Shown here: positions 15,494 through 53,164 of the stretch, piece by piece
Position numbering within the stretch: the stretch's first letter is position 1
How the letters are laid out: each line of letters opens with the position of its first letter
NCBI RefSeq assembly: GCF_002261265.1
Contig: NZ_NEVK01000001.1
Location: forward strand, 186,001-250,000
Source of the DNA: Bordetella genomosp. 7
GTDB lineage: Bacteria; Pseudomonadota; Gammaproteobacteria; Burkholderiales; Burkholderiaceae_B
Length of the DNA stretch: 64,000 nt
Direction: 5' to 3'
Notes under the pieces: model-generated
What the model was told of the DNA's origin: nothing
The model's database searches: none
What the model saw: only the letters and a program-made list of their open reading frames with translations
Position numbers and translations under genes: made by a program

Positions 15494-17599
15494 ATGTTCG
15501 AGTTCAAGAAAACCGGCCAGCAGCAGAAGCAGCGCTTCAAGCTGCGCGCGTGGGTGGGCGGCCTGTTCGCGCTGGCCTGCTTTGGCGTGCTGGTGGGGCG
15601 TTTCTGGTATTTGCAGGTCGACCGCTACGAGGGCCTGTCCGAACGCGCCGACCGCAATCGCATCGCCGTCGTGCCCATTGCGCCGCGCCGCGGCGAGATC
15701 CTCGACCGTAATGGCCAGGTGCTGGCGCGCAATTACCGCACCTATACCCTTGAGGTGGTGCCGGCCCAGGCCGGAAACATCGATAAGCTGCTCGATCGTC
15801 TGACGCCCATTGTGTATGTCAGCCCCGGCGACCTGCGCCGCTTCAAGCGCCGCGTGGGAGAGTCCAGCCGCTATGCCAGCCTGGTGCTGCGTAACAACCT
15901 CAACGAAACCGAGGCCGCCTGGTTCGCCGCGCACGCCTATGAGTTTCCCGGCGTCGAGTTGCGCGCGCGCTGGGTGCGCGAATACCCCCAGGGCGCCACG
16001 GCCGCGCATGTGGTGGGCTATATAGGCCGTATCGCCGACAACGATCTCGAACAGCTCGAAGAAACCGGCCAACTGGGCAATTATCGGGGCACCGATGTCA
16101 TCGGCAAGAAGGGCATCGAAAAAAGCTGGGAACGCCAGCTGCACGGCCAGACCGGGGTGGAAGAAGTCGAAGTCACCGCCACGGGACGCCCGGTGCGCAC
16201 GCTGCGGCGCACCGACCCCGTGCCGGGCTCGGACATCATGCTGTCCATCGACCTGGACTTGCAACGCATCGCCGAAGAAGCCTTCGGCGACCAGCGGGGC
16301 GCCCTGGTGGCCCTGGACCCCAAGACCGGCGAAGTCCTGGCGTTTGTGTCGCAGCCGTCGTTCGACCCCAACCTGTTCATTGACGGCATTGACGTCGACA
16401 ACTGGCGCATGCTGAACGAATCGCCCGACCATCCGCTGATCAACCGTCCGCTGTACGGCACGTATCCCATCGGCTCGACATACAAGCCGTTCGTGGCCCT
16501 GGCGGCCTTGCAGCTGGGCGTGCGCAGCGCCACCGAGCGCATCTCGGACCCGGGCTACTACGAATTCGGCGGCCAGCGCTTTCGCAATGCGGGGGGCGCG
16601 GCCTATGGCATGACCGACATGCATCGCGCGATCGTCGTGTCGTCGGATACCTACTTCTATTCGCTGGGGCCCGAAATTGGCGTGAATGCCCTGCACGATT
16701 TCTCGAAGCAATTCGGGTTCGGCCAGATCACGGGCATCGACCTCGATGGCGAGCGCGCCGGCGTGCTGCCTTCTACCGAATGGAAGCGCAAGGCCTACAA
16801 GGGCCGTGAACGCCAGCGCTGGTACGCCGGCGAGACGATTTCGGTAGCGGTGGGGCAGGGCTACAACTCGTTCACGTTGCTGCAGCTGGCGCAGGCCACT
16901 TCGACGCTGGCGGACAATGGCGCGTACCGCCGGCCCCACCTGGTGCATGCGGTGCGCGATACCCGCACGGGCGAGATCAAGGTCACACCGTCGGACCCGG
17001 AATATCGCATTCCGCTCGAACAGCGCAACGTCGATATCATCAAGGCCGCCATGGCCGACGTGGTGCGTGCGGGCACCGCGCGGCGCGCTTTTGCCGGCGC
17101 TTCGTACCAATCGGCCGGCAAGACGGGCACGGCGCAGGTGTTCAGCCTGCGCGGCGCGCAATACCGGGCCAGCGAGCTGGACGAGCGCTTGCGCGACCAT
17201 GCACTGTTCATGGGGTTTGCGCCGCTGGAAAACCCGCGCATCGCCGTGGCGCTGCTGGTAGAAAATGCGGGCTGGGGCGCCAGTGTCGCCGCGCCCATTG
17301 CCCGCAAGGTGTTCGATTACTGGCTGGCCAAGACGGCGCCCGCCGCGCCCACGTTGCCCGCGCAGGCGCCGACGGCCGCTGGCGCGGTTGCCGACTCGGC
17401 CTCCGACGCCAGCGCCGAGCCGGCGCCGCGTGCCGAGCCGCGTCCGCCCGCTCCTCCCGCTCCGCGTCCGCGCCCCACGCCTCGCGCACTGGCGCCGGCC
17501 ACGCCGCCGCCCGCGCCGGCTCGCCGCGTTCCGTCAACTGCGCCAGCGTTGTCCGACCTGAGCGAGCTTTTTGAGTCTTCCACGGGAGCCAAGCCATGA
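15494..17599 (+). CDS. mrdA: Penicillin-binding protein 2 (elongation transpeptidase) with Pro/Ala-rich tail
   Basis: 701-residue class B PBP that crosslinks lateral-wall peptidoglycan with RodA. It has an N-terminal membrane anchor (about 22-40), a dimerisation domain starting RGEILDRNGQVLARN, and a transpeptidase domain with Ser328-x-x-Lys331 (GSTYKP), an SSD motif and Lys543-Thr-Gly (GKTGTAQ). ATG at 15494 is preferred over the in-frame GTG at 15488. From about residue 615 an ~86-residue Pro/Ala/Arg-rich tail, absent from E. coli PBP2, precedes the stop. It overlaps rodA by ATGA. Confidence 0.95.
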   Translation: MFEFKKTGQQQKQRFKLRAWVGGLFALACFGVLVGRFWYLQVDRYEGLSERADRNRIAVVPIAPRRGEILDRNGQVLARNYRTYTLEVVPAQAGNIDKLLDRLTPIVYVSPGDLRRFKRRVGESSRYASLVLRNNLNETEAAWFAAHAYEFPGVELRARWVREYPQGATAAHVVGYIGRIADNDLEQLEETGQLGNYRGTDVIGKKGIEKSWERQLHGQTGVEEVEVTATGRPVRTLRRTDPVPGSDIMLSIDLDLQRIAEEAFGDQRGALVALDPKTGEVLAFVSQPSFDPNLFIDGIDVDNWRMLNESPDHPLINRPLYGTYPIGSTYKPFVALAALQLGVRSATERISDPGYYEFGGQRFRNAGGAAYGMTDMHRAIVVSSDTYFYSLGPEIGVNALHDFSKQFGFGQITGIDLDGERAGVLPSTEWKRKAYKGRERQRWYAGETISVAVGQGYNSFTLLQLAQATSTLADNGAYRRPHLVHAVRDTRTGEIKVTPSDPEYRIPLEQRNVDIIKAAMADVVRAGTARRAFAGASYQSAGKTGTAQVFSLRGAQYRASELDERLRDHALFMGFAPLENPRIAVALLVENAGWGASVAAPIARKVFDYWLAKTAPAAPTLPAQAPTAAGAVADSASDASAEPAPRAEPRPPAPPAPRPRPTPRALAPATPPPAPARRVPSTAPALSDLSELFESSTGAKP

Positions 17600-18732
17600 A
17601 ACGCCTGGGCGCGCTGCTGGCTCGGATTTTCCTTGCCTTCGACTGGCCATTGCTGGTCATCCTGGCCCTGTTCGCCGCGCTGGGCCTTACCGTCATGCAT
17701 TCGGCCGTGGGCAGCACCGACTGGCGCTTTGCCGAGCAGTCGCGCAACTTTGCGATTGCCTTTGCGGCGATGTGGGTCGTGGCCCTGGTGCCGCCCAGGC
17801 GCCTGATGCAGCTGGCGCTGCCGTTTTATGTGGTGGGCGTGGTGCTGTTGCTGGGGGTGGAATTTTTCGGCGAAACCAGCAAGGGCGCGACGCGCTGGCT
17901 GGACCTGGGCGTTACGCGCATCCAGCCATCCGAAATGATGAAAATCGCCGTGCCGATGATGCTGGCCTGGTATTTCCAGCGCCACGAAGGCGACGTGCGC
18001 ATCCGCGATTTCCTGGCGGCCGCCGCCATGCTCGCGGCGCCATTCGGCTTGATCGTGTTGCAGCCCGACCTGGGCACGGCATTGTTGGTGTTCGGCGCCG
18101 GGTTCTTCGTGATCTATTTCGCGGGCCTGTCGTTCAAGCTGTTGGTGCCCCTGACGGTGATCGGGGTGGCGGGCATAGGCACGCTGATCTATTACGAAAA
18201 TTCGCTGTGCCAGGCCGGCGTTGACTGGGTGGTATTGCACGAATACCAGAAGCAGCGGGTATGCACGCTGCTCAATCCCAGCTCGGACCCCCTGGGCAAG
18301 GGGTTCCATACCATCCAGTCGATGATCGCGGTGGGGTCGGGCGGTCTGTATGGCAAGGGTTATATGCAGGGCACGCAGACGCACCTGGACTTTATCCCCG
18401 AGCGCACGACCGACTTCATTTTCGCGGTGTACGCGGAAGAGTTCGGGTTGTACGGCGGGGTGGCGATGCTGGTGCTGTACGGGCTGCTGATCGCTCGGGG
18501 CCTGACCATCGCCATGCGCGCTTCGTCCCAGTTCGGCCGCCTGCTGGCCGGGGCGCTGACGATGATGGTGTTCATCTACGTGTTCGTGAATGTGGGCATG
18601 GTAACCGGCATCCTGCCGGTAGTGGGCGTGCCGTTGCCATTCATGAGCTACGGCGGGACGGCGCTGTTCACCATGGGGATTGCCTGCGGGATATTGATGA
18701 GCGTCTCCAGGCATCGGGGGGAGCAGGCGTGA
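17596..18732 (+). CDS. rodA: Peptidoglycan glycosyltransferase RodA (SEDS family)
   Basis: 378-residue polytopic SEDS polymerase that works with PBP2 to extend glycan strands. Visible features: ATRWLDLGVTRIQPSE, the catalytic-region LQPDLGTALL with its conserved Asp, DFIFAVYAEEFG and the C-terminal LPFMSYGGTAL signature. The start overlaps the mrdA stop by ATGA. It is the last gene of the operon; the downstream gap holds large palindromes instead of an obvious simple terminator. Confidence 0.96.
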   Translation: MKRLGALLARIFLAFDWPLLVILALFAALGLTVMHSAVGSTDWRFAEQSRNFAIAFAAMWVVALVPPRRLMQLALPFYVVGVVLLLGVEFFGETSKGATRWLDLGVTRIQPSEMMKIAVPMMLAWYFQRHEGDVRIRDFLAAAAMLAAPFGLIVLQPDLGTALLVFGAGFFVIYFAGLSFKLLVPLTVIGVAGIGTLIYYENSLCQAGVDWVVLHEYQKQRVCTLLNPSSDPLGKGFHTIQSMIAVGSGGLYGKGYMQGTQTHLDFIPERTTDFIFAVYAEEFGLYGGVAMLVLYGLLIARGLTIAMRASSQFGRLLAGALTMMVFIYVFVNVGMVTGILPVVGVPLPFMSYGGTALFTMGIACGILMSVSRHRGEQA

Positions 18733-18768
18733 CGGTTGGGGTGTTTGGGTATGACTGAGTACTGAAGC

Positions 18769-18927
18769 GCCGGCGGGCGGGGACAGGCGGGGGAGCGGCT
18801 TCACGTGGCCGGTCGGCCGCCCCGCGCGGCCGACACCGCTTCGTCAACCTCGTCAGCCTGCGGCTTCCTTCGGTTTCCCTCGCTCGGCCCCGAGGCGCCG
18901 CCCCCCCGCCTGTCCCCGCCCGCCGGC
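18769..18927 (+). repeat. Large palindromic element A (25-bp perfect outer stem)
   Basis: Outer arms 18769-18793 and 18903-18927 are perfect inverted 25-mers (left begins GCCGGCGGGCGGGGACAGG). Inside, a conserved core begins GGCTTCACGTGGCC. It continues with a perfect 8-bp hairpin, GTCGGCCG / CGGCCGAC (18812-18834), closed over the heptamer CCCCGCG. About 60 bp shared with element B then follow, ending GAGGCGCC. The core recurs in reverse orientation in elements B and C, but the outer-arm sequence does not. Function unknown. Confidence 0.85.
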
Positions 18928-19017
18928 TCGCGGTGTCGGTTTGCCACGGTTATTGGCGCCGCCGGTGTGCTTGGCGGTGTTCAGGTCGTCAAGGGGACGG
19001 GAGATGGTAGTGGGCCG

Positions 19018-19050
19018 CCAGGGCAGGCCGCCCTGCGCGGCCTGCCCTGG
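19018..19050 (+). repeat. Small hairpin H1, perfect 13-bp stem, CCCTGCG loop
   Basis: Arms CCAGGGCAGGCCG (19018-19030) and CGGCCTGCCCTGG (19038-19050) pair perfectly around CCCTGCG. The sequence CATTCGGG follows immediately. Three other hairpins in the window share the loop and a similar flank but have different stems (H2 52002, H3 52311, H4 19200). Confidence 0.85.
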
Positions 19051-19199
19051 CATTCGGGGTGGGCTGGCGGGGGGCTTGTTCCGTTGGCGGGTGGCCGGGG
19101 GTAGGGTGGCTGTGCGTAAGCTAGGCCGGATTGGTCTCACCGCGTCTATTGACAGTGCCACCTTACGTACCGCCAATCCTCGCATTCCATCACCCGAAC

Positions 19200-19234
19200 G
19201 CGTCAGGCGTCCGCGCAGGGCGGGCGCTTGACGC
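19200..19234 (-). repeat. Small hairpin H4, 14-bp stem, CCCTGCG loop (minus orientation)
   Basis: Arms 19200-19213 and 19221-19234 pair at 12 of 14 positions plus two G-T pairs, around CGCAGGG (CCCTGCG on the minus strand). On the minus strand GTTCGGG follows the stem, matching the flank of H1 and H2. Its stem sequence is unlike the other hairpins. Confidence 0.75.
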
Positions 19235-19320
19235 GGCCCTGCACTTCTCCCACCCCTCTTGAGCATCAGCCCCGCACGACACGGTTTTTTTTCAGCAACC
19301 TGACCACATTCACCGATGCA

Positions 19321-19481
19321 GCCGGGCGCCGGGGGCGTAGCGGGAGGCGGGCGCCTCGGGGGCGAGCGAGGGAAACCGAAGGAAGCCGCAGGCTGACGAG
19401 GTTGACGACGCGGTGTCGGCCGCGGGGGGCGGCCGACCGGCCCCGTGAAGCCCGCCTCCCGCTACGCCCCCGGCGCCCGGC
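19321..19481 (-). repeat. Large palindromic element B (32-bp perfect outer stem)
   Basis: Outer arms 19321-19352 and 19450-19481 are perfect inverted 32-mers. On the minus strand the interior reads TTCACGGGGCC, then hairpin GTCGGCCG / CGGCCGAC (19415-19437) over CCCCCCG, then a segment almost identical to element A through GAGGCGCC. The outer arms differ from those of elements A and C, so self-complementarity is kept while sequence is not. Confidence 0.85.
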
Positions 19482-19521
19482 GTCAACAGAAAGGACAACC
19501 AGCCTTCCCCCGAAAAACCCC

Positions 19522-20094
19522 TCAGAGCAACACCCTCAGATGCTCATCCAGATGCACGGTAGGCGCCACGCGCCATCCGCTTTGGGCGTACCGCAGCCAG
19601 CGTCCCAGCACCAGGTGGGTCAACAGGCTGGCGTGGGCGGTGATGTTGGCATCGGCGGGCAGGTCGCCGTCGCTGACTGCCACGCGCAGAGATTGCTTCA
19701 GCGTGGCCTCGATGCGGTCGTTGATGTGGTTGATGCGTTCCTGCAGCCGGTTGTCTTCCGTGACCAGCGCGTCGCCGGTCAGCACCCGCGTCATGCCCTT
19801 GTTGCGCTCCGAGAATGCCAGCAGCATCGACACCGTCTTGCGCGCCTGGGCCAGGCCCAGCGGTTCGGCCGCGGCAATCTGGTTGATAAGGGTGAACAGG
19901 CTTACCTCGATAAACTCGATCAAGCCTTCGAACATCTGCGCCTTGCTGGCGAAATGCCGGTACAGAGCCGCTTCCGAAACCTGCATGCGGGCGGCCAGCG
20001 CCGCGGTGGTAATGCGTGCCGCATGTGGCTGCTCCAGCATTTCAGCCAAAGTTTGCAGGATCTGGTTTTTGCGTTCGCCGGGTTTGCTCGCCAT
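19522..20094 (-). CDS. slmA: Nucleoid occlusion factor SlmA (TetR family)
   Basis: 190-residue TetR-type DNA-binding protein. The N-terminal helix-turn-helix (ITTAALAARMQVSEAALYRHFASKAQMFEGLIEFIE, split here across residues 28-63) closely follows E. coli SlmA, as does the RVLTGDAL region. SlmA binds chromosomal sites and blocks FtsZ assembly over the nucleoid. Start ATG at 20094. It is downstream of the HAD phosphatase and argB on the same strand, with a 36-bp gap. Confidence 0.9.
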   Translation of the reverse strand: MASKPGERKNQILQTLAEMLEQPHAARITTAALAARMQVSEAALYRHFASKAQMFEGLIEFIEVSLFTLINQIAAAEPLGLAQARKTVSMLLAFSERNKGMTRVLTGDALVTEDNRLQERINHINDRIEATLKQSLRVAVSDGDLPADANITAHASLLTHLVLGRWLRYAQSGWRVAPTVHLDEHLRVLL

Positions 20095-50342: not shown

Positions 50343-51851
50343 CTACAAGAACAGCCGGTAGGCCGGATTGTCGGTTTCGTTCCAGTGCGGGTAGCCCAGC
50401 TCGGCCACGAAGCTCTTGAATTGCTTCTTGTCGGAGGGCGGCACCTGGATGCCGATCAGGATCTGGCCGTAGTCGGCGCCCTGATTACGGTAATGGAACA
50501 GGCTGATGTTCCAGTCGGGGTTCATGGCGCTTAGAAAGCGCATCAGTGCGCCCGGGCGTTCGGGAAATTCGAAGCGATACAGCAGCTCGTTGCTGGCGAG
50601 CGAGGACCGGCCGCCCACCATATGGCGCAAGTGAGTCTTGGCCATTTCATCGTGGGTGAGGTCCAGCGTGTCGAAGCCGTGGCGACGGAAGTTTGCGGCG
50701 ATCTTGTCCGACTCGGATGGCGAGGCAACCTGCAGGCCCACGAATACGTGGGCGCGCGCGGGGTCGGAAATGCGGTAGTTGAACTCCGTCACGCTGCGGT
50801 GCCCCACCAGTTCGCAGAAGCGCCGGAAGCTGCCTCGCTGTTCGGGCATGCTGACTGCGAAAACCGCTTCGCGCATTTCGCCCACTTCGGCGCGTTCGGC
50901 CACGAAGCGCAGGCGGTCGAAGTTCATGTTGGCGCCGCAGGCGATGGCAACAAGAGTGGCGCCCTTGAGCTTGTGCGTGGCGGCATATTGCTTGGCGGCG
51001 GCCACCGCCATGGCGCCGGCGGGCTCGAGCACGCTGCGGGTATCCTGGAATACGTCTTTGATGGCCGCGCAGATGGCGTCGGTGTCGACCACCACGAAAT
51101 CGTCGACATACTGGCGGGTCAGGCGGAACGTTTCGGCGCCGACCATCTTCACGGCGGTGCCATCGGAGAACAGGCCCACATCGTTGAGCTGCACGCGGCG
51201 CCCCGCGCGCACGCTGCGCAGCATGGCGTCGGAGTCATCGGTCTGCACGCCGATGATCTTGATCTCGGGGCGCAGCTGCTTGACGTAGGCGGCGATACCC
51301 GACACCAGCCCGCCGCCGCCGATGGCCACGAAAATGGCATCGATGGGGCCGGGATGCTGGCGCAGGATCTCCATGCCCACCGTACCCTGCCCGGCGATGA
51401 CGTCAGGGTCGTCGAAAGGGTGCACGAAGGTAAGCTTTTCTTTCTTCTCGAGCGTCTGGGCGTGCTCGTAGGCATCCGTGAAGCTCTCGCCGGCCAGCAC
51501 GACTTCGCCGCCCAGGCGCCGCACCGCGTCTATCTTGACTTGCGGGCTGGTGGTGGGCATGACGATGACGGCCCGGCAGCCCAGCCGCGATGCAGCCAGC
51601 GCGACCCCCTGCGCATGGTTACCCGCCGAGGCGGCGATGACGCCCCGGTTGCGCGCCGCGGGTGGCAGGTTGGCCATTTTGTTGTACGCCCCGCGCAGCT
51701 TGAAGCTGAAAACCGCCTGGGTATCTTCACGCTTGAGCAGCACCGTGTTCGAAATTCGCTGGGACAGCAGGGGAGCGGGGTCTAGCGGGGATTCGACGGC
51801 GACGTCATAGACCTTCGAGGTCAGGATGCGTTTTAGATAATCGGCGGACAT
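50343..51851 (-). CDS. ilvA: Threonine ammonia-lyase, biosynthetic
   Basis: 502 residues; deaminates threonine to 2-oxobutyrate for isoleucine synthesis. PLP lysine is Lys51 (SFKLRGAYN). SAGNHAQGVA and GGGGLVSGIA bind the cofactor. Two C-terminal ACT-like regulatory domains (about 325-500) are present as in the long, isoleucine-inhibited form. Start ATG at 51851. Confidence 0.96.
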   Translation of the reverse strand: MSADYLKRILTSKVYDVAVESPLDPAPLLSQRISNTVLLKREDTQAVFSFKLRGAYNKMANLPPAARNRGVIAASAGNHAQGVALAASRLGCRAVIVMPTTSPQVKIDAVRRLGGEVVLAGESFTDAYEHAQTLEKKEKLTFVHPFDDPDVIAGQGTVGMEILRQHPGPIDAIFVAIGGGGLVSGIAAYVKQLRPEIKIIGVQTDDSDAMLRSVRAGRRVQLNDVGLFSDGTAVKMVGAETFRLTRQYVDDFVVVDTDAICAAIKDVFQDTRSVLEPAGAMAVAAAKQYAATHKLKGATLVAIACGANMNFDRLRFVAERAEVGEMREAVFAVSMPEQRGSFRRFCELVGHRSVTEFNYRISDPARAHVFVGLQVASPSESDKIAANFRRHGFDTLDLTHDEMAKTHLRHMVGGRSSLASNELLYRFEFPERPGALMRFLSAMNPDWNISLFHYRNQGADYGQILIGIQVPPSDKKQFKSFVAELGYPHWNETDNPAYRLFL

Positions 51852-51949
51852 AGTGGCTTTGGGGCCGCGTGTAGGAAGGTTGAAGCGGTGGGGGGATTAT
51901 TGCATGCGGCATTTGGGGAGGAGGTGTTCCTTCTGATGACGTCGCGGGG

Positions 51950-52001
51950 GGAGGGGGCGCGAAGCCCGGCTTCACGGTGCCGTCGGGCGCCCTGTGCGCC
52001 C
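51950..52001 (+). repeat. Truncated palindrome core D
   Basis: GGCTTCACGGTGCC (51969-51982) and a 7-bp hairpin TCGGGCG / CGCCCGG-like over CCCTGTG match the start of the large-element core. The GAGGCGCC end and a complementary right arm are missing. It runs directly into hairpin H2, as if its right half had been replaced. Confidence 0.6.
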
Positions 52002-52038
52002 GGCCCGCCCGCGCCGCCCTGCGCGGCGCGGGCGGGCC
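52002..52038 (+). repeat. Small hairpin H2, perfect 15-bp stem, CCCTGCG loop
   Basis: Arms GGCCCGCCCGCGCCG (52002-52016) and CGGCGCGGGCGGGCC (52024-52038) pair completely around CCCTGCG, followed by ATTCGGG. Same apex and flank as H1, with an unrelated stem. Confidence 0.85.
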
Positions 52039-52310: not shown

Positions 52311-52347
52311 GCATTTTCCAGGCCGCGCAGGGCGGCCCGGAAAATGC
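52311..52347 (-). repeat. Small hairpin H3, 15-bp stem, CCCTGCG loop (minus orientation)
   Basis: Arms 52311-52325 and 52333-52347 pair except at one position, around CGCAGGG. Read on the minus strand, the loop is CCCTGCG, the single odd pair is G-T, and CATTCG follows. Its AT-rich outer stem (GCATTTTCC / GGAAAATGC) is quite unlike the GC-only stems of H1 and H2. Confidence 0.8.
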
Positions 52348-52441: not shown

Positions 52442-52546
52442 GTCGTGGGCGGGAGGCGTGGGGCCGCGGCGCCTCGGGGGCGGATCGGGCGCGCGGGGCG
52501 CCCGACGGCCCCGTGAAGCCAAGGCCCCACGCCTCCCGCCCACGAC
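52442..52546 (-). repeat. Large palindromic element C (24-bp perfect outer stem)
   Basis: Arms 52442-52465 and 52523-52546 are perfect inverted 24-mers. On the minus strand the interior reads TTGGCTTCACGGGGCCG, then hairpin TCGGGCG / CGCCCGA (52485-52505) over CCCCGCG, then CCCCCGAGGCGCC. It lacks the ~45-bp insert between apex hairpin and GAGGCGCC found in A and B. Arm sequence differs from A and B. Confidence 0.85.
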
Positions 52547-52609: not shown

Positions 52610-53164
52610 ATGGAAGAAAGCCTGCTGAACGCCGTACATTGGATGCTGGCGCTGGTGGCGTTGCCCGTGGTCGGATTGCCGGCCATTTTCGTGGTCAGCG
52701 TCATTTCGGCGACCCTCTTGCCGCTGGGCTCCGAGCCGGCGGTTTTCGGCTTTGTGAAGCTGGCGCCCGACATGTTCTGGCCGGCCGTACTGGTCGCCAC
52801 CGCCGGCAACACCATCGGCGGAGCCATTAGTTACGCCATGGGCCTGGGCGTCCACCGCGCCCTGGAACGATGGCGGGAAAAACACCCCCACCCGCATCCC
52901 GACGGGCACCCTGGCCACCCCGGCGGGCCCGCCGACCGCATGCGCGGGCGCTGGCACCTGCATGCCCACGACTGGCTGCACCGGATCGGCCCGCCGGCCC
53001 TGCTGCTGTCGTGGCTGCCGGCCGTGGGCGACCCGCTGTGCGCCGTGGCGGGCTGGCTGCGCCTGGCGTTCTGGCCGTGCGTGCTGTACATGGCCATCGG
53101 CAAGTTTGCCCGGTACACCATCATGACGGCCGGCCTGCTGTGGTTCTTTCCGCAGCCCGTGTAG
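52610..53164 (+). CDS. YqaA/DedA-like membrane protein with His-rich loop
   Basis: 184 residues, about four membrane segments. SATLLPLGSEPAVFGFV near the N-terminus and AVGDPLCAVAGWLRL near the C-terminus resemble YqaA-type relatives of the DedA family. The central loop (about 85-128) is rich in His, Pro and Gly (HPHPHPDGHPGHPGG, then HLHAHDWLHR), suggesting metal binding. Function of YqaA is unknown. ATG at 52610. Confidence 0.82.
   Translation: MEESLLNAVHWMLALVALPVVGLPAIFVVSVISATLLPLGSEPAVFGFVKLAPDMFWPAVLVATAGNTIGGAISYAMGLGVHRALERWREKHPHPHPDGHPGHPGGPADRMRGRWHLHAHDWLHRIGPPALLLSWLPAVGDPLCAVAGWLRLAFWPCVLYMAIGKFARYTIMTAGLLWFFPQPV

Follow-up and report, generated by a model that had tools for sequence, protein, structure and literature searches.

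How can long palindromic stems stay paired while their sequence changes from copy to copy? The keeping of long stems without broken intermediates is an open question in RNA and palindrome evolution, and it is raised by three large palindromes (A, B and C) in a 64,000-nt stretch of Bordetella genomosp. 7 DNA, called the window below. According to a sequence-only reading of this window, the three share a core while their outer arms, paired exactly within each copy, do not match between copies. The explanation preferred here combines a family of intergenic units, a fold that is kept, joint rewriting of both arms and a role at gene borders; as a whole, including the proposed mechanism and role, it is given a probability of about two in three.

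All three inverted repeats are present. That of A extends over 18769-18811 and 18885-18927 (43 nt, 88% including the core), that of B over 19321-19364 and 19438-19481 (44 nt, 91%), and that of C over 52442-52482 and 52506-52546 (41 nt, 85%). The arm lengths claimed earlier hold for A (longest exact arm of 25 nt) and for C (24 nt exact), but the 32 bp given for B should be corrected, its longest exact run being 29 nt. The common core, GGCTTCACGKGGCC ... GAGGCGCC, is confirmed, and the 4.13-Mb genome contains three exact copies of the core word GGCTTCACGNGGCC, all inside the window. RNA fold z-scores relative to dinucleotide shuffles are -7.2 for A and -8.1 for C, none of 200 shuffles being as good in either case. 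Three features go beyond the earlier claims: the minus-strand orientation of B and C, the fact that A and B form the inverted ends of a single unit, and an inner pair of hairpins with variable arms. The features of the two loci are:

17596..18732, plus strand: rodA, left neighbour of unit 1 (NCBIfam TIGR02210 above cut-off; stop at 18732)
18757..19495, no strand: unit 1, made up of two inverted half-units and placed between the convergent genes rodA and slmA (from inverted element pairs in relatives and ortholog comparison)
18769..18927, plus strand: element A, outer hairpin of the left half-unit of unit 1, 37 nt past the rodA stop; long core class (103 nt)
19017..19051, plus strand: inner hairpin of the left half-unit of unit 1, 10-bp arms around GCCGCCCTGCGCGGC
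19200..19234, minus strand: inner hairpin of the right half-unit of unit 1, 10-nt arms with 9 of 10 paired, core two bases off consensus (found when two core mismatches were allowed, outside the one-mismatch inner-hairpin list)
19321..19481, minus strand: element B, outer hairpin of the right half-unit of unit 1, about 40 nt past the slmA stop; long core class (103 nt)
19522..20094, minus strand: slmA, right neighbour of unit 1 (NCBIfam NF007015 above cut-off; stop at 19522)
50343..51851, minus strand: ilvA (threonine ammonia-lyase), on the left of unit 2 and divergent to the gene that follows it
51941..52002, plus strand: truncated left outer hairpin of unit 2, in which the left arm, GGCTTCACGGTGCC and the apical hairpin are present and the right arm and linker absent (extent by eye)
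52003..52037, plus strand: inner hairpin of the left half of unit 2 (inner-hairpin search)
52311..52347, minus strand: inner hairpin, with GCATTTTCC arms, in the right half of unit 2
52442..52546, minus strand: element C, a short-class outer hairpin (core of 53 nt) in the right half of unit 2
52610..53164, plus strand: VTT-domain membrane protein gene, on the right of unit 2 (its protein scores 34 bits with Pfam PF09335, cut-off 33.9, and has no match in NCBIfam)

A and B are assigned to the two ends of one unit because many matches to B in related genomes come as inverted pairs, about 450-750 bp apart. Because such pairs were found by BLAST and by a covariance model, a reading of A and B as two independent palindromes was rejected. 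A second unit, truncated at its left end, has C at its right end. A with B (about 740 bp, intergenic) and C probably represent two copies of a dispersed intergenic unit of about 0.65-0.9 kb in the Bordetella petrii clade.

Each half-unit consists, in order, of an end motif (GTTCTTYTGGC), a foot (GTCG/CGAC), a sequence-free stem of 23-24 bp, an internal loop, an apical hairpin, a linker and an inner hairpin. The outer arms are 27 or 28 nt long, mostly with GTCG at the start and CGAC at the end (by eye); the sequence next to them is approximately GTTCTTYTGGC on the outer side and TCGCA on the inner side. In the 45 long copies the four foot pairs are formed 43, 45, 43 and 45 times. Between the arms lies a core of either a short class (53-56 nt) or a long class (98-110 nt). 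Both contain the conserved internal loop, GGCTTCACG / CGAGGCGCC, and the apical hairpin covaries in the long class. The linker is about 104 nt long (102-106 nt from CGAC to the inner core, 5th-95th percentile, measured in the 87 half-units, out of 144, whose inner core could be recognised). The consensus of the inner hairpin is GGGGCC-N10-GCCGCCCNGCGCGGC-N10'-ATTCG, with arms of exactly 10 nt in 62 of the 74 found. Only short, overlapping open reading frames are present in the units, the longest being 137 aa long in unit 1 and, in a unit of Bordetella genomosp. 4 (genome G002), 129 aa; three of those in unit 1 are without a Pfam match.

The family is found in the genomes of the genus. As a BLAST query against 61 genomes (own, genus, family and order), B gives matches below 1e-11 only in eight of nine same-genus genomes; the ninth, G005, has weak matches only, and one family genome (G011) is matched over 48 nt at 5e-10. 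The long-class outer hairpin, used as a covariance model with up to 150 candidates scored per genome, matches in all nine genus genomes, from at least 5 times in G000 to at least 102 in G002. The short-class model also matches in all nine, some palindromes being hit in both orientations. Among 151 evenly drawn family genomes nine matched, seven of them in the genus Bordetella. The matches of the other two, G025 and G155, are weak, and that of G155 retains the order GTTCTT, GTCG, arm, GGCTTCACG, AGGCGCC, arm, CGAC. One pattern and one G002 unit, searched against plasmids, phages and viruses, gave no match. From the fetched loci 144 outer hairpins were retained out of 159 candidates. The 15 dropped for core mismatch include at least one true G002 copy, and the 144 retained include at least one misread from the opposite strand (G008:C33:236834), which was lost at the next step. 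Arm statistics refer to the 134 of 144 elements in register (at least 20 of 27 positions paired), with 96 distinct arm pairs.

In these 96 pairs, 2121 of 2208 positions (96%) are Watson-Crick, and the mean number paired per arm pair is 22.1 of 23, compared with 9.7 for shuffled right arms. Two copies have a left-arm identity of 0.514 on average, the value expected from position-specific composition being 0.519, and pairing a left arm with the right arm of a different copy gives 0.515; the outer arms are indeed as unlike between copies as was claimed. In the 45 long-class copies 96.2% of cells are paired and 427 are double-change cells; neither value is reached by any of 500 shuffles, and sliding the partner by 1-3 columns lowers pairing to 39-43% (43.1% at most). 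Two of the checks that the sequence-only reading had proposed, on arm complementarity and on covariation, thus gave positive results, and covariation beyond shuffled and slid controls is a feature shared with structured RNA families. Since the first finder itself required pairing, the search was repeated with the core motifs only. Of the 154 places obtained, 12 have fewer than 17 of 27 positions paired; by their ends seven of these do not belong to the family, and the five family-like ones comprise three truncated or rearranged copies and two with diverged arms (by eye). The stems hold their length and near-perfect pairing while their sequence varies freely.

The same gene ends in different species were identified by flanking genes, with register shifts allowed. 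At these sites ortholog arms change together and pairing is kept, which bears out the earlier proposal that pairing is maintained or re-made at each site. A differs from its orthologs in G008 and G004 by 8 and 11 double changes, respectively, and B from its ortholog in G003 by 12, with no single change in any of the three comparisons. Over 48 ortholog pairs (1098 positions), which have loci in common and do not count as independent, 309 changes are double, 47 single and 20 of other kinds. In 19 close pairs (flank identity of at least 90%, similar core length) the linker differs by 20.7%, the arms by 17.2% and the core by 7.7%; the difference between core and linker implies that the hairpin is constrained. 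Orthologous ends often differ in core class (55 in G003 vs 108 in G006), so whole hairpins are replaced too.

Transitions account for 89 of the 309 double changes and transversions for 220. Steps through G-U, which give transitions, are therefore not the main route, and copying between arms or exchange between copies is likelier. For unrelated arms of the same composition 23% transitions would be expected, so that whole-arm exchange or saturation explains much of the transversion excess. Shared in-register runs of at least 10 reach 10.8% for copies within a genome in the long class, against 1.7% between genomes and 0.5% with columns shuffled; in the short class these values are 6.6%, 4.0% and 2.4%. 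The excess of long runs within genomes fits exchange or duplication inside genomes.

The remaining mispairs may indicate which strand matters. Read on the gene-sense strand, those of the 96 distinct arm pairs are A-C/C-A in 61 cases, G-T/T-G in 11 and other in 15, and the 61 are G-U wobbles on the other, outward-reading strand of the unit. Because mispairs are mainly G-U there, the fold of the outward strand is probably what is kept, as RNA or single-stranded DNA. The bias is seen on both genomic strands (21:4 and 40:7), hence replication strand is not its cause. Linker changes in three G002 arm groups have a mild bias of their own (38 G>A vs 23 C>T); with related arms collapsed the mispairs are 31:10 (P=0.0015 against 1:1, P=0.038 against the G002 linker bias). 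The RNA fold of the outward strand is more stable in 132 of 144 elements, in part because of the same A-C mispairs. Against a kept outward fold stand the weakening of the bias upon collapsing, its absence in inner hairpins (21:14, P=0.31) and the conserved U-G wobbles on the gene-sense strand. These are the core pair 46/148, found without exception in the 45 long copies (likewise, as 46/92, in the 11 short ones), and the apical pair 57/79 in 8 of 11 short copies, each a wobble only on that strand.

A same-strand gene end lies upstream of 108 of 142 callable elements, at a median of 43 nt (crude ORF calls; the 144 collected minus one without a call and one too near the sequence end). The other 34 include real exceptions such as C, and a pure 3'-UTR element was rejected on this ground; a pure 3'-end role also fails since unit 2 lies between divergent genes (ilvA and the VTT-domain gene). 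A scan of unit 1 found no promoter-like or terminator-like sites, and a terminator scan of a related locus (L091) gave two weak sites against 0.8 expected. The T run of an intrinsic terminator is absent, the outer hairpins being followed by the consensus GCCAGAAGAAC (outward) or TCGCA (gene sense). In many relatives a T-rich stretch of the outward strand lies beside the inner hairpin (by eye); a terminator composed of inner hairpin and T run was rejected, as the scanner found none in unit 1. With the whole window searched, no Rfam family reaches its gathering score at the elements, and sub-threshold matches in four relative loci are mostly microRNA hairpins. The sole Rfam match in the window is a SAM_alpha riboswitch above the gathering score at 356-435.

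According to the preferred explanation, the outward-strand fold, as RNA or single-stranded DNA, would be the conserved property. The arms could be rewritten together by copying within the hairpin (template switching) and by exchange of hairpins between copies, and selection would remove most mispairs other than G-U on the outward strand. The likeliest role would be that of a structural barrier in transcripts or DNA at gene borders (transcript end, insulator or stabiliser), and the barrier sequence could also spread as a non-autonomous repeat. Such a structural role would be favoured because old copies stay paired; should the fold indeed act at gene borders, the whole Bordetella petrii group would share this feature. 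Fold selection and template-switch correction, the two processes named earlier, both leave traces and are incompletely separated. The 144 collected copies, many at orthologous sites, carry an unpaired linker as an internal clock, and therefore fold selection, template switching and inter-copy exchange can be weighed directly. The Bordetella unit is thus a natural test of how long hairpins stay intact in evolution.

Bordetella genomosp. 4 provides evidence for mobility. Arm groups of 23, 11 and 9 members occur among its 55 elements, each with a common first 16 nt of the left arm; the members have differing surroundings and often both arms identical. Several matches are less than about 700 bp away from the end of a contig, as is the case with assembly-breaking repeats. 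At site L121, which carries a G002 unit, both flanking genes are adjacent without the unit in G001, G004, G005 and G006. Gain in G002 would be the simplest reading, and loss in the other genomes could be the alternative. Comparison with the unit-free relatives by eye revealed no target duplication at this one site. The shared arms in G002, together with the one site that lacks the unit in four relatives, suggest that the unit spreads. Identical arms in other copies, by which the reading would recognise a simple repeat family, thus do occur in this species. Its contrast with ordinary mobile-repeat copies is not supported in the form given, the unit being also a repeat family that appears to spread. 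Like MITE-like elements, the unit is short, has no recognised gene, bears inverted ends and is present in many copies.

Candidate mobilising enzymes were considered. The RAYT/Y1 transposase (PF01797), the only partner family searched, is found in six of nine genus genomes and was not detected in G002, G004 and G007; a part as mobiliser is not supported, since G002 and G004 are the richest in copies. An enzyme carried within a longer unit was also rejected, the IS110-family transposase at L159 being read as an insertion in the middle of the unit, and the 2.1-kb L110 pair contains short ORFs only. The IS110-family gene (L159 1762-2745, G004) lies beside GTGCCTGACACC-type repeats.

A spreading element recognised by hairpin shape alone, with stem length, foot and loop fixed and stem sequence rewritten in both arms, is a tentative possibility. 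If it is true, every resident copy bears its own perfectly paired 'barcode' stems. A rival explanation, which we consider doubtful, is that of transposon hairpin ends recognised by shape as single-stranded DNA and kept only while mobile. The ends of IS200/IS605-type elements and integron attC sites are recognised in this manner. The inverted ends, recent identical G002 copies and unit-free sites in four relatives agree with it, and the folded strand is the outward strand. However, no transposase gene is recognised in the unit, which has short ORFs only, PF01797 was not found in G002, G004 and G007, no target duplication was visible at the one site inspected, and old common copies are still paired.

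An ordinary structured RNA with stepwise compensatory mutation (riboswitch-like or terminator-like, with many paralogs) could account for the massive covariation and the strand bias. It is nevertheless unlikely: double changes are mostly transversions, Rfam yields no family at gathering score at the elements and, in four relative loci, mostly microRNA hairpins below it, and the two units of the window lie in one convergent and one divergent intergenic region.

Purely mutational upkeep, in which template switching perfects functionless quasi-palindromes and the family is a selfish repeat, is improbable, although it has a precedent in template switching as a hairpin-maintaining process, described in the available part of PMC8794818. 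It would agree with the 220 of 309 double changes that are transversions and not the transitions of G-U steps. In nine of the ten closest pairs (flank at least 92%), 3 of 14 doubles are transitions, compared with 56% (121 of 217) among G002 linker changes (P=0.013; one outlying pair was omitted after the fact, and with it the count is 4 of 22). Adjacent doubles in 18 pairs, which are not independent, number 28 against 20.3 expected (P=0.019). A blind process, however, would not give fixed stem lengths, a conserved loop and a strand-specific mispair bias, the hairpin is constrained (core 7.7%, linker 20.7%), and the transition share is also lower than the copying of ordinary point mutations predicts. 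Insertion of the core into pre-existing palindromes such as terminators, with arms of host sequence, as reported for some REP elements and dimers in the available part of PMC3733652, can practically be dismissed, because the arms mostly have a conserved GTCG foot and a fixed length and the unit-free L121 site of four relatives has no palindrome bearing these arms (by eye).

Several known systems resemble the unit. ERIC, NEMIS/Correia, YPAL and similar MITE-like palindromes are non-coding, have inverted ends and spread between genes; their copies share stem sequence, and we know of no sequence-free stems of fixed length in this class. Integron attC sites have a stem of variable sequence, a fold that counts on one strand and a position just after genes, in all of which the Bordetella unit is similar. 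REP/BIME elements (GTAG- or CGTC-tagged) are likewise intergenic palindromes, mostly 3' of genes and often in inverted pairs, with proposed roles in termination, mRNA stability and supercoiling (available part of PMC3733652). REPs are described there as 20-40 bp palindromes in sequence families with an unpaired tag, whereas the outer hairpins of the unit are about 105-164 nt, with a paired foot and sequence-free stems. A 20-40 bp size with family sequence, an unpaired GTAG/CGTC tag and a RAYT partner were not found for the unit.

The beta-proteobacterial repeat element (BRE) is also dispersed in Bordetella, usually intergenic, and present in the bprJ1/bprJ2 sRNA region; by its description in the available part of PMC3110155 it is set apart from the unit, being 75-91 bp, often tandem and sequence-aligned. 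At the L121-equivalent site of G008 (L228), partly tandem GTGTCTGACACC-type repeats stand in place of the unit and may be the published BRE. The Bor repeats of Bordetellae are palindromic and lie near genes, but are 26-30 bp long as described in PMC1590033, which would distinguish them from the unit. Sequence-free fixed-length stems are not described in the available parts of PMC3733652, PMC1590033, PMC2267715, PMC3110155 and PMC8794818, and no description was found in the open-licence literature searched. The unit is a variant of bacterial interspersed palindromic repeats, distinguished by its sequence-free, fixed-length paired stems.

Some loci depart from the common layout. At the rodA-slmA site, G005 has an apparent decayed remnant and G006 has no unit. 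In G002, a palindrome of about 30 bp followed by TCGCAG, with a different core (by eye), lies 3' of rodA (L147) and possibly belongs to a further class of the family. A G003 unit (L173 1423-2784) contains about four tandem 327-bp copies with inner hairpins. In G004, rodA and slmA are found on separate contigs (L085 / L082, C1 and the end of C4), each with one unit end and with 334 identical bases in common, which corresponds either to a rearrangement at the unit or to an assembly break.
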